A DNA stretch of 39,933 nt from Candidatus Latescibacterota bacterium (lineage in GTDB: Bacteria > Krumholzibacteriota > Krumholzibacteriia > Krumholzibacteriales > Krumholzibacteriaceae), in the NCBI GenBank assembly GCA_019038625.1, contig JAHOYU010000176.1, positions 1-39,933 on the forward strand, given 5' to 3'. The notes under the pieces are model-generated. The model was not told the DNA's origin and ran no database searches. It saw only the letters and a program-made list of their open reading frames with translations. Below, piece after piece: positions 6,495-30,080 of the stretch. A program made the translations under genes and the position numbers. Every line of letters begins with the position of its first letter. The first letter of the stretch is position 1.

Positions 6495-6803
6495 CTAGTA
6501 GCCGCCACGACCGAATCCGCCGCCACGACCGCCGCCACCGCCGCCACCGCCGCGGTTATCGTTGCGAGGACGAGCCTGGTTGACTTTGAGCGTACGACCC
6601 ATGAAATCTTTGTCATTCAGGTTGTCGATAGCTGCCTGGGCCTCGGTGTCGTTTGACATCTCGATAAAACCGAATCCCTTCGGACGACCAGTGTCCCTGT
6701 CCGTAATGATGGATACGGTATCAACCGTTCCGTGTTCTTCAAAAGCTTTCCTGATATCGCTTTCGCTAGTATCGAAAGACATATTTCCAACATAAATCTT
6801 CAT
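6495..6803 (-). CDS. Glycine-rich RRM RNA-binding protein (copy 1)
   Basis: The product is 102 residues with a single RNA recognition motif. RNP2 is KIYVGNM at residues 2-8 and RNP1 is KGFGFIEM at 42-49. A disordered Arg-Gly-Gly tail follows from about residue 80. This is the standard architecture of bacterial cold-shock or stress-related RRM proteins, which bind single-stranded RNA and probably remodel or stabilise transcripts. AGGAGG lies just before the ATG. The leader is long, about 155 bases from a promoter at 6966-6993. A paralogue at 29760 has the same size, a nearly identical RRM, a similar leader length and a similar 3' hairpin. Confidence 0.9.
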   Translation of the reverse strand: MKIYVGNMSFDTSESDIRKAFEEHGTVDTVSIITDRDTGRPKGFGFIEMSNDTEAQAAIDNLNDKDFMGRTLKVNQARPRNDNRGGGGGGGGRGGGFGRGGY

Positions 6804-7015: not shown

Positions 7016-7128
7016 CTATTTGCGATTTCGAAATATCCCCACAACACTGGCAATAATCAGAATCGCGCCGATCCACGATCCAGGCAGGGGCTTTGAACGC
7101 ATCAATTCAGACAATTCAAAAAAAGCTT
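7016..7128 (-). pseudogene. EamA-family transporter C-terminal remnant
   Basis: The minus strand encodes about 36 codons ending WIGAILIIASVVGIFRNRK and a TAG. The last 17 residues match the intact EamA protein at 9057-9950 in all but one position. The first 44 bases (7016-7059) match 9057-9100 at 40 positions, and all four differences are synonymous. Similarity then falls off, and an in-frame stop lies just upstream of codon 1. This is the severed tail of a related EamA gene. It sits directly before the marR-hgcAB promoter, so the cassette is flanked by two EamA ends in the same orientation. Confidence 0.8.
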
Positions 7129-7155
7129 GCTAAACCAATAATTGTATAATACAAT
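7127..7155 (+). promoter_or_regulatory. marR-hgcAB promoter and palindromic operator
   Basis: TTGCTA (7127-7132), a 17-base spacer and TACAAT (7150-7155) form a good promoter. The -10 is one half of a perfect 15-base palindrome, ATTGTAT-A-ATACAAT, at 7141-7155. A MarR dimer bound there would block RNA polymerase, giving negative autoregulation of marR and control of hgcAB. A looser TTACAATAT copy follows at 7165-7173. The leader to the marR ATG is about 38 bases, with AGGGGG as ribosome-binding site. Confidence 0.65.
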
Positions 7156-7199
7156 AATAGCATGTTACAATATCATGTCATTCTTCAGGGGGCAGCATT

Positions 7200-7652
7200 A
7201 TGACACAAGTGAAGGTGGATTATAGTGAATTCTCCCTGTTTGTATCACTACTGGTCAAAAAATTGAGTCTGCTGAACAGAGACCATAAATCCTGTTATGG
7301 CCTGACGATGTCCCAGTGTTTCACAATCGAGGCCCTTGCTGAAAACGGCAAGCTGTCAATGAATAAACTGAGCCATGAGCTGGGTGTCACCGTAAGTACC
7401 ATGACCAGGATCATTGATGTACTTCTGCGTGATGGAAATGTCAACAGGCGAGATAATCCGGATGACAGGCGTCAAGTCTGTATTGAACTCACCTCCTCAG
7501 GCAGAAACCTAGCTGTGAAACTGAGGCAATGCTCAGACCACTACGCAAGGGATATACTGGATCAGATACCAGAAAAGGAAAAGAATGGAGTAATCAAGTC
7601 TTTGAAAATGCTTGTCAAGGCATTGGAGTCTGCGAACAAGAAATGTTGCTAG
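7200..7652 (+). CDS. MarR-family regulator linked to hgcAB
   Basis: A 150-residue winged-helix regulator of the MarR family. The recognition region is LSMNKLSHELGVTVSTMTRIIDVLLRDG (residues 52-79), and the wing contains the hallmark DPDDRR-type sequence NPDDRRQVCIELTSSG (86-101). The flanking helices would form the dimer interface. It has six cysteines (32, 40, 94, 111, 149, 150), including a C-terminal vicinal pair, which is many for this family and could allow thiol or metal sensing. The hgcA ATG follows 34 bases downstream on the same strand, so one transcript is likely. By context it senses a signal relevant to mercury, arsenic or redox state; that is inference. Confidence 0.85.
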   Translation: MTQVKVDYSEFSLFVSLLVKKLSLLNRDHKSCYGLTMSQCFTIEALAENGKLSMNKLSHELGVTVSTMTRIIDVLLRDGNVNRRDNPDDRRQVCIELTSSGRNLAVKLRQCSDHYARDILDQIPEKEKNGVIKSLKMLVKALESANKKCC

Positions 7653-7686: not shown

Positions 7687-8718
7687 ATGAAGAAAAAATA
7701 TATAACTGGTTCAATTGAGACGAAGGGTGGAGAGATCCCGACAGTCTCAACTTCGATTGACAGGATGGATAAATGGGGAGCATTCAAAGCAAGGTGTTCA
7801 ATCGGTCGTATGCGCTATACGATTAGGCCGGGCCTGTATGCAGCCGGAAATCCTGATCAGGATTCGATCGTCCTGGTCTCAGCAAACTACAAGTTGAGTT
7901 TTGACGTGCTTCGAAGTTCTCTTCATGGAATCGATGCATGGATATTAGTGTTGGATACTAAAGGTATCAACGTATGGTGTGCCGCAGGCAAAGGAACGTT
8001 CGGAACAGATGAGATAGTCAATCGCATTGAGCAGACGAGGCTGAAAGAGATAATAGGTCATCGCAAACTTATTGTTCCACAACTTGGAGCACCCGGGGTG
8101 GCCGCTCATGAAGTTAAGAAACACTCGGGATTCACGGTGATATACGGTCCTGTGCGAGCGTCTGATATACTATCTTTTCTTGAAAACGGAATGGTTGCGA
8201 CAGCTGAAATGCGAAAGGTGAACTTCTCAATGCGTGACAGGTCGGTTCTGGTACCTGTGGAATTTGTAATGGGATTCAAACATCTGGTTCTGGCCTCTGT
8301 TGTCTTTTTCCTTTTAGCCGGTTTGCATAAAGGGGGATATTCCACCCAGGTTGCTCTAACGGCAGGTAGTCGATCGACCCTGATACTGCTTCTTGCGTTC
8401 CTGACGGGAACGATAATGGTGCCGATGCTCCTTCCCTGGCTGCCGGGCAGGAGTTTTTCCCTGAAAGGACTGATCGCCGGTCTTATACTGATTGTTGTCC
8501 TGGGTGTCTCAGGGTTTGCGGAATCAAATATTATTGAATCGCTTGCCTGGATACTGATAGTCACTGCAATATCTTCTTTCACTGCTATGAATTTCACGGG
8601 GGCTTCGACCTACACATCTCTGTCTGGTGTGAAGAAGGAAATGCGGATTGCGGTTCCTTTACAGATCACTGCATCGTTGACAGGAGTGACACTATGGATA
8701 ATAGGAAGATTTGTCTGA
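7687..8718 (+). CDS. hgcA: Mercury methylation corrinoid protein HgcA
   Basis: HgcA transfers a methyl group from its cobalamin to Hg(II), making methylmercury together with HgcB. This 343-residue protein has the diagnostic cap-helix motif N-V-W-C-A-A-G-K at residues 95-102, with Cys98 as the expected lower-axial cobalt ligand. The corrinoid-binding domain spans about 30-175. Five membrane segments follow (about 195-213, 230-250, 259-277, 283-301, 322-341). MNFTGASTYTSLSGVKKEM at 301-319 also looks like the conserved HgcA C-terminal loop. The membrane domain distinguishes it from the acetyl-CoA-pathway protein CfsA/AcsD. I chose the ATG at 7687; a frame-open extension to 7612 would overlap marR and adds nothing family-like. 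hgcB starts 13 bases after the stop. Confidence 0.95.
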   Translation: MKKKYITGSIETKGGEIPTVSTSIDRMDKWGAFKARCSIGRMRYTIRPGLYAAGNPDQDSIVLVSANYKLSFDVLRSSLHGIDAWILVLDTKGINVWCAAGKGTFGTDEIVNRIEQTRLKEIIGHRKLIVPQLGAPGVAAHEVKKHSGFTVIYGPVRASDILSFLENGMVATAEMRKVNFSMRDRSVLVPVEFVMGFKHLVLASVVFFLLAGLHKGGYSTQVALTAGSRSTLILLLAFLTGTIMVPMLLPWLPGRSFSLKGLIAGLILIVVLGVSGFAESNIIESLAWILIVTAISSFTAMNFTGASTYTSLSGVKKEMRIAVPLQITASLTGVTLWIIGRFV

Positions 8719-8731
8719 AAGGTATGGGACA

Positions 8732-9019
8732 ATGGCCTCAATGAAGTATCTGAGAAATGTCGCTACACTGAAGTTGGATGCCGAGAGATGTATTGGCTGT
8801 GGGGTGTGCTCGACTGTCTGTCCACATGCGGTTTTTGATATCATTGGGAAAAAAGCGAGGATAGTCGACAAGGATTCATGCATGGAATGCGGTGCATGTG
8901 CCAGGAACTGTCCCGCATGCGCGATCACTGTCAAATCCGGAGTCGGTTGTGCGGCTGGCATTATAGCCGGCATGCTCAGGGGTACAGAGCCGGCATGTGA
9001 TGAAGGATGTTGTGGATAG
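8732..9019 (+). CDS. hgcB: Mercury methylation ferredoxin HgcB
   Basis: HgcB supplies electrons to reduce the HgcA cobalt and may handle the mercury substrate. The product is 95 residues, the usual length. It carries two 4Fe-4S motifs, Cys20-23-26-30-Pro and Cys50-53-56-60-Pro. It also has Cys73, the position of the additional conserved cysteine, and the vicinal pair Cys93-Cys94 at the C-terminus (EGCCG), which marks HgcB among small ferredoxins. The ATG at 8732 is preferred because GAAAGG lies nine bases upstream; this ribosome-binding site overlaps the hgcA stop. A TTG at 8711 and an ATG at 8741 are alternatives. It is the last gene of the cassette, with the convergent EamA gene 37 bases away. 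Confidence 0.95.
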   Translation: MASMKYLRNVATLKLDAERCIGCGVCSTVCPHAVFDIIGKKARIVDKDSCMECGACARNCPACAITVKSGVGCAAGIIAGMLRGTEPACDEGCCG

Positions 9020-9056: not shown

Positions 9057-9950
9057 TTATTTGCGATTTCGAAATATCCCTACAACACTGGCGATGATCA
9101 ATAATGCTCCGGTCATGGTCCATCCGGTGACGCTTTCCCTGAGGATCAGCCAGCCGAGAAAGACCGCGATCACCGGGTTTACATAGGCATAGGTCATGAC
9201 GACCTGGTAGGGGAGAAGCCTCAGGGTCGTAAGGTAGGAAGTAAAACAGATCACCGAGCTGAACAGGACGAGGTATCCCCAGGCCATCCATGCTTCGCCC
9301 GTGGGAGTGGGCAGGGGTTCGCGCCGGAGCAGGGCGATGGCCAGTAGTCCGACCCCGCCCAGTAGCTGTTGCCAACCTGACATGGCCCGGTCACTGAGGT
9401 CGAGTTTCCTCCTCTGCAGCCAGATAGAACCAGCGGCCCAGGAAAGGGGGGCGAAGAGAAGAGCGGCGACGGCCAGGATGTCCGCTGTGTTTCCCAGTCT
9501 CAGAACGGGCCAGGACAGGACGCCGACTCCGAGGAATCCAAGAAATACAGAGCCTGTCATCCGCCAGCCGGGGAAACGCCGGTCGACGACACAGACCATG
9601 CACTCGGCCCATATCGGCATCGATGCCACGAGCAGGGCCGCCAGCCCGGACGAGACACGAGTCTCCCCCCAGTTGACCAGCCCGTTGCCTCCGAGCCAGA
9701 GCAAAATGCCGCTACCGGCGAGTATTCCAAATTCCGGGAGAGAAAGCCGGATCCTCTCTCGGCGCAGCCGGGCCCATATCAGCAATATTGCCGATGCTGC
9801 CATGACCCGTACAAATGCCATTGTAAATGGAGGGAATCCCGATCCTTCCCTGACAGCTACACGTATTGCCAGGTAGGTGGATCCCCAGACCAGATATACT
9901 ATCGATAGATGAGCAAGTCCGGCCCTATCGAGTGTTTTTCTGTCGACCAT
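9057..9950 (-). CDS. EamA/DMT-family transporter
   Basis: A 297-residue inner-membrane protein with about ten transmembrane helices arranged as two EamA halves. The N-terminal half begins LSIVYLVWGSTYLAIRVAV and the second half has YAYVNPVIAVFLGWLILRE, both characteristic of drug/metabolite exporters of the RhaT/YedA kind. The substrate cannot be told. The start lies 11 bases after the phosphofructokinase stop, so the two genes probably share a transcript. Its last 44 coding bases are repeated at 7016-7059, on the far side of marR-hgcAB. Confidence 0.85.
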   Translation of the reverse strand: MVDRKTLDRAGLAHLSIVYLVWGSTYLAIRVAVREGSGFPPFTMAFVRVMAASAILLIWARLRRERIRLSLPEFGILAGSGILLWLGGNGLVNWGETRVSSGLAALLVASMPIWAECMVCVVDRRFPGWRMTGSVFLGFLGVGVLSWPVLRLGNTADILAVAALLFAPLSWAAGSIWLQRRKLDLSDRAMSGWQQLLGGVGLLAIALLRREPLPTPTGEAWMAWGYLVLFSSVICFTSYLTTLRLLPYQVVMTYAYVNPVIAVFLGWLILRESVTGWTMTGALLIIASVVGIFRNRK

Positions 9951-29595: not shown

Positions 29596-29759
29596 CCGCC
29601 ACAGAACAGTGCGATTAGGATTGGATTTATGAAGTCATCCGGATGGGGGCGATAGAGAAACCTGCCTCACTTCATCCCTGATGGGACGCTCACTTGATTT
29701 TAATCTCAAAACTGTCGAAAAGTAGAGTTTAAACCCGTTGAGACCATCAGGAGGTCACA

Positions 29760-30080
29760 ATGAAGATTTATGTAGGAAACATGTCTTATGACACAAGTGA
29801 AGACGACCTGCGCACAGCTTTCGAAGCTCACGGCACGGTCGACTCTGTAGCCATCATCTCCGATAGAGATACCGGTCGCCCGAAGGGCTTCGGTTTTGTC
29901 GAGATGTCAAATGACGATGAAGCCAAGGCTGCCATTGAAGCCCTGAACGAAAAGGACCTAGGGGGTCGTACGCTCAAAGTAAACGAAGCACGTCCTCGCA
30001 ACGATAATCGCGGTGGCGGCGGTGGCGGCGGTCGTGGCGGCGGCGGCGGCAGAGGCGGCGGCGGTTGGGGCAGCTACTAG
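29760..30080 (+). CDS. Glycine-rich RRM RNA-binding protein (copy 2)
   Basis: A 106-residue RRM protein. RNP2 KIYVGNM and RNP1 KGFGFVEM are in the same positions as in the 6495 copy, and about 80% of the first 80 residues are the same. The tail is a run of Gly-Gly-Arg repeats ending GGWGSY. AGGAGG precedes the ATG. Possible roles are cold adaptation and RNA chaperoning. The nearby hairpin at 30172 resembles the one after copy 1. Confidence 0.9.

Follow-up and report, generated by a model that had tools for sequence, protein, structure and literature searches.

Microbes bearing hgcAB are the source of most environmental methylmercury. In Pseudodesulfovibrio mercurii ND132, hgcAB is reported to be under ArsR control with an arsenic response (Gionfriddo et al. 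2023, cited in PMC10349881). In 112 genomes, McDaniel et al. (PMC7438021) described a conserved regulator linked to hgcAB, which may overlap the regulator considered here. In this study, the window, that is, the whole analysed stretch of 39,933 nt from a Candidatus Latescibacterota bacterium, carries a marR gene upstream of hgcA and hgcB, with a palindrome at the promoter of the three genes. This locus raises the question of whether the palindrome is an operator for the adjacent MarR, and which signal would release the protein from it.

The coordinates of the locus are collected in Table 1. HgcA and HgcB are encoded side by side, and both score above the curated NCBIfam cut-offs. The start of hgcB was placed at the ATG at 8732, with an in-frame TTG further upstream at 8711. 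The marR-hgcA gap measures 34 nt and the hgcA-hgcB gap about 13 nt, and no terminator-like site was found on the + strand. The product of the first gene matches PF01047 with 47.9 bits (cut-off 24.6), and its AlphaFold model (pLDDT 86) shows the canonical MarR fold and element order. With VIA-align, the model gave a Z of 15.5 to E. coli MarR (1jgs), whose fold it shares, and also aligned well with ZitR and AdcR. An assignment to AdcR was rejected because NF038251 reached only 21 bits against a cut-off of 175. No ArsR model matched the protein, and its Pfam and NCBIfam matches are all of the MarR type.

Table 1. Features of the marR-hgcAB locus; positions refer to the window.
Feature	Position	Strand	Description and basis
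Cassette absent from same-genus genome	7082..9058	+	Promoter and operators, marR, hgcA, hgcB; homology to G001 breaks
-35 hexamer TTGCTA	7127..7132	+	Consensus scan; promoter alignment (L006 plus four more); homologous to TTGACA of L006
Operator O1, predicted	7141..7155	.	ATTGTATAATACAAT; overlaps -10; conserved at 37/38 hgcA-linked marR promoters; sole exact genome copy
-10 hexamer TACAAT	7150..7155	+	Consensus scan; promoter alignment; homologous to TATAAT in L006
Operator O2, predicted	7158..7170	.	TAGCATGTTACAA; 9/12 match to core; exactly 16 bp from O1
marR	7200..7652	+	150 aa, cysteine-rich MarR-family regulator; Cys32, Cys111, Cys149-Cys150
hgcA	7687..8718	+	Corrinoid protein of mercury methylation; NF040863 456 bits, E 6.7e-137, cut-off 275
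hgcB	8732..9019	+	Ferredoxin of mercury methylation; NF040864 121 bits, cut-off 99

According to the original prediction, a palindrome ATTGTAT-A-ATACAAT covers the TACAAT of a TTGCTA-N17-TACAAT promoter, and this is borne out by the DNA. O1 is a perfect 7+1+7 palindrome (ATTGTATAATACAAT) centred on A7148, and the two hexamers are separated by a spacer of 17 nt, although the promoter reaches only 9/12 consensus matches in the consensus scan. The range of 7127-7155 first given for the palindrome is in fact the extent of the promoter, of which the palindrome fills only the 3' half, and the second copy at 7158-7170 had been overlooked. The core of O1, TTGTATNATACAA, matches 12/12 at 7142-7154, and within the 3.78-Mb genome the exact 12-base core is unique to O1. 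Rarity of the palindrome alone was rejected as an argument, since eight perfect palindromes with 7-base arms were found in the window against 5.35 in shuffles, which is not significant. Bare symmetry is not rare in the window, and therefore the distinction of O1 is its conservation. Such counts would also suit a chance AT-rich inverted repeat around the -10 with no regulator; this reading is scarcely credible in view of the sequence-specific conservation across phyla, the footprint with unconserved flanks, and the tracking of marR described below.

HgcA relatives were collected from genome contigs and filtered for a MarR gene immediately upstream; a profile search covering 774 genomes from three phyla then enlarged the set. 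After duplicate removal, it held 39 hgcA-linked MarRs (38 with usable upstream DNA), 16 linked to arsM, and 40 others. The window core TTGTATNATACAA was fixed before the other promoters were scored over 300 bp upstream, with a threshold of at least 10/12. At this threshold, the core is found at 37/38 hgcA-linked marR genes, where dinucleotide shuffles predict 1.2, and at 10/16 arsM-linked marR genes, where they predict 0.4, but at only 2/37 distant marR paralogs (1.0 expected). Scrambled palindromes of the same composition, 29 in number, reached a maximum of 5/38 hgcA-linked promoters. When the proteins were collapsed at 60% identity, the operator was retained in 21 of the 22 hgcA-linked groups. 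The MarRs nearest to that of the window share 52%, 49%, 43%, and 43% identity with it (L006 Aminicenantes, L007, L023, L049 KSB1); all four, and also the more distant Syntrophales and deltaproteobacterial MarRs, have TTGTATNATACAA-like palindromes at the marR promoter. An absence of conservation among related loci had been named beforehand as evidence against an operator; the comparison was made, and the operator proved to be conserved across several phyla.

Among hgcA loci without a linked marR, only 2/61 have the core at 10/12 or better, and one of these two exceptions possesses an unlinked subfamily MarR that itself carries the operator. Because the site tracks the MarR subfamily and not hgcA alone, the adjacent MarR is supported as the binder, as had been proposed, while the repression of three genes that was proposed along with it stays a prediction. 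On sequence grounds, the identity of the operator is well supported, and it is very likely that MarR would bind the site. A wider regulon in the window's genome is not claimed, as the two further one-mismatch sites (C21 and C82) do not exceed the number of control matches; the C21 site lies just before a reverse-strand gene resembling nadB. Further exact matches to the operator in other genomes (L185, L187, L194, L195, L196) have unrelated genes beside or around them, look like chance, and were set aside.

For the footprint comparison, a gap-free alignment anchored on O1 was made of the window promoter and its five closest counterparts. In 6/6 aligned promoters, O2 starts exactly 16 bp past O1. 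O1 and O2 are each ~79% identical on average among the six promoters, and the 50-bp flanks are 30-31% identical. Across 55 promoters, an offset of +16 gave the top mean match among offsets of at least 6, and -16 gave the second. O1 is located on the -10, and O2 is placed near the expected transcription start; at a 9/12 match, the O2 of the window may be weak as an operator. Pooled over the promoters, the operator logo reads AGTTGTAT-N-ATACAACT. In Syntrophales and their kin, one GTTGTATNATACAAC lies on the -10, and the marR ATG follows within a few bases (L033, L044, L141, L143, and similar loci). This proximity of the ATG to the -10 and operator suggests that the marR mRNA of such loci is leaderless. 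Three operator-like copies in 16-bp steps were observed about 30-60 bp before marR in L049.

We propose that O1 and the weaker O2 would act as tandem operators for MarR, the product of the operon's first gene. A dimeric MarR would cover the -10 on O1 and the start point on O2, and the single marR-hgcA-hgcB promoter would be shut off by MarR in a mode of autorepression. A soft metal(loid) or a thiol-reactive signal would meet Cys32, Cys111, and Cys149-Cys150, and MarR would be released. Taken as a whole, an operator together with repression by an autoregulated MarR is likely. For the separate step in which bound MarR would repress the promoter, and hence marR-hgcAB, the probability is high. Control of all three genes, marR, hgcA, and hgcB, is plausible because the gaps are short and the + strand has no terminator-like site. 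MarRs commonly autoregulate, and the operator could be real and yet serve marR alone, with hgcAB expressed from its own downstream promoter. This arrangement is very improbable, given the 34-nt gap between marR and hgcA and the missing terminator-like site on the + strand; moreover, marR overlaps hgcA in the KSB1 loci, and one Nitrospinota locus has the operator directly at hgcA without marR.

The closest non-hgcA relatives of the window MarR mostly precede arsM, the gene of an arsenite methyltransferase, which stands there alone or with an N-acetyltransferase gene (ArsN2-like); ArsM scores above the NCBIfam cut-off in L160, L162, and L166. In a quick MarR tree, the hgcA-linked and arsM-linked proteins fall on one side of a branch with an SH-aLRT of 95, together with seven other MarRs, some of which carry the operator too. 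The hgcA-linked MarRs occupy more than one place in this quick tree, which means that linkage to hgcA or arsM has changed at least twice. In the Nitrospinota genome G876, an unlinked subfamily MarR (L174) has a perfect operator (12/12), and the only other perfect one (L188, 12/12) lies about 190-196 nt before arsM (NF008823, 291 bits), with a ferritin-like gene diverging from it. The same genome has an 11/12 operator directly before hgcA, with no marR there (L057). Collectively, these three loci indicate that G876 has the operator at marR, arsM, and hgcA separately; from the 12 specified bases, we estimate that about 0.15 exact sites are expected by chance in 2.5 Mb. The dispersed operators of G876 possibly form a trans regulon. 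The broader proposition, in which one cysteine-based MarR subfamily with one operator controls arsM and hgcAB across several phyla with arsenite-like induction, stands at even odds. The window's own genome has only a partial, interrupted arsM (L197, G000 C198), the best piece of which spans 119 residues and is without the MarR operator, and this gene was rejected as an operator target.

In the structural model of the window MarR, the loop between alpha1 and alpha2 holds Cys32, the central part of alpha5 holds Cys111, and Cys149-Cys150 lie where alpha6 ends. Cys32 occurs in 38/38 hgcA-linked MarRs, and a cysteine at positions 31-34 is present in 16/16 arsM-linked MarRs versus 6/40 others. Similarly, the C-terminal cysteine pair occurs in 36/38 hgcA-linked and 15/16 arsM-linked MarRs, compared with 6/40 others. 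The window MarR has the marks of the subfamily, namely, Cys32, Cys149, Cys150, and the TTGTATNATACAA operator. Cys111 is found in 31/38 hgcA-linked MarRs, is conserved nowhere else, and is absent from the arsM-linked branch; the unlinked G876 MarR is without Cys32. Since Cys111 is absent from that branch and from 7/38 hgcA-linked proteins, and Cys32 from the G876 protein, a single fixed metal site is only a possibility. The zinc ligands of AdcR lie in the same two regions, the alpha1-alpha2 loop and alpha5, and both AdcR and ZitR thus place metal ligands where Cys32 and Cys111 fall (PMC6224198). Unlike the window MarR, these two proteins have His/Glu-rich Zn sites and use zinc as a corepressor. 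The cysteine conservation and the ligand regions of AdcR make a soft-metal or thiol-reactive signal the best guess, and because the same subfamily and operator occur at arsM, the leading candidate is arsenite, followed by Hg(II). That the release signal is a metal(loid) is somewhat better than an even bet.

Most hosts of hgcAB are anaerobes from sulfidic environments. ROS or sulfane sulfur is the signal for many MarRs with cysteines (PMC11211675), and both facts would agree with the same operator and repressor responding to a redox or sulfane-sulfur signal, where a disulfide or persulfide among Cys32, Cys111, and the C-terminal pair frees MarR. Thiol-switch MarRs of the OhrR/MexR type likewise show the cysteine-based DNA release (PMC11211675) that is proposed here, but their cysteine positions and targets differ. 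The arsM link of the subfamily and the G876 operators at arsM and hgcA point to a metal(loid), and a redox or sulfane-sulfur signal is considered unlikely. A further variant leaves MarR bound at the site but lets the metal act as a corepressor needed for DNA binding, or lets MarR activate the promoter. AdcR requires Zn for DNA binding, and the cysteines sit where AdcR and ZitR bind zinc. However, the targets of the arsM and hgcAB products are toxic metal(loid)s, where the usual logic is induction by the metal. In addition, the placement of O1 over the -10 and of O2 at the start is unsuited to activation; on both counts, this variant is improbable. The reading that we prefer is still a MarR repressor that a soft metal(loid) would release from the tandem operators.

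E. coli MarR has paired palindromes of the TTG-N7-CAA type at its own promoter. It differs from the window MarR in its response to drugs or phenolics and to copper oxidation, in its target genes, and in its cysteine positions. The gene of the ArsR-like regulator of ND132 lies upstream of hgcAB, as here, and PMC10349881 describes this regulator as co-transcribed with hgcAB and arsenic-responsive; it belongs to the ArsR/SmtB family, whereas the window regulator is a MarR. MarR genes upstream of hgcA were noted in Dethiobacter alkaliphilus and Geobacter daltonii (PMC10349881), where they adjoin hgcA as in the window, but the presence of the MarR gene alone was described, with no operator or arsM link. 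These two were the only cases of a MarR with arsM or hgcA returned by our literature searches, in which no description of a MarR operator for hgcAB, or of a MarR subfamily shared with arsM, was found. MarRs that autoregulate from an operator overlapping the -10 are of an already known kind; new, as far as the searches reach, are the MarR subfamily, its cysteine set, the 16-bp tandem, and the two methylation targets. If the proposal is true, hgcAB would belong to a metal(loid)-response regulon, and, through the operator shared with arsM, MarR would join ArsR of ND132 as a second, independent family of regulators linking hgcAB with arsenic. The proposal names one regulator and one operator together with its second copy, and it sets out the testable expectation of induction by arsenite or another thiol-binding metal; the operator could also be used for predicting hgcAB control in metagenomes.

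Finally, the window was compared with a same-genus genome that lacks hgcA (G001). G001 matches the window through 7081 and again from 9059; at the same spot (L183), the space separating EamA from the RNA-binding-protein gene is taken up by a gene for an ARMT1-like phosphatase. Judging from this comparison, the operator, promoter, marR, hgcA, and hgcB form one exchangeable block of 2.0 kb, and the location is a predicted site of gene exchange. A single exchangeable block would explain why the regulator is not parted from its operator during transfer. The marR-hgcAB block is flanked by a 57-nt direct repeat (84%, 7017-7073 and 9058-9114); one copy is the 3' end of the gene for the EamA transporter (minus strand, 9057-9950), and the other is a leftover duplicate of that end. 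The same EamA leftover exists in G001, so it predates the cassette. Elsewhere in the window, the region 29738-30062 is, on the other strand, ~75% identical to the RRM-type RNA-binding-protein gene at 6495-6803 and is likely a paralog of it.
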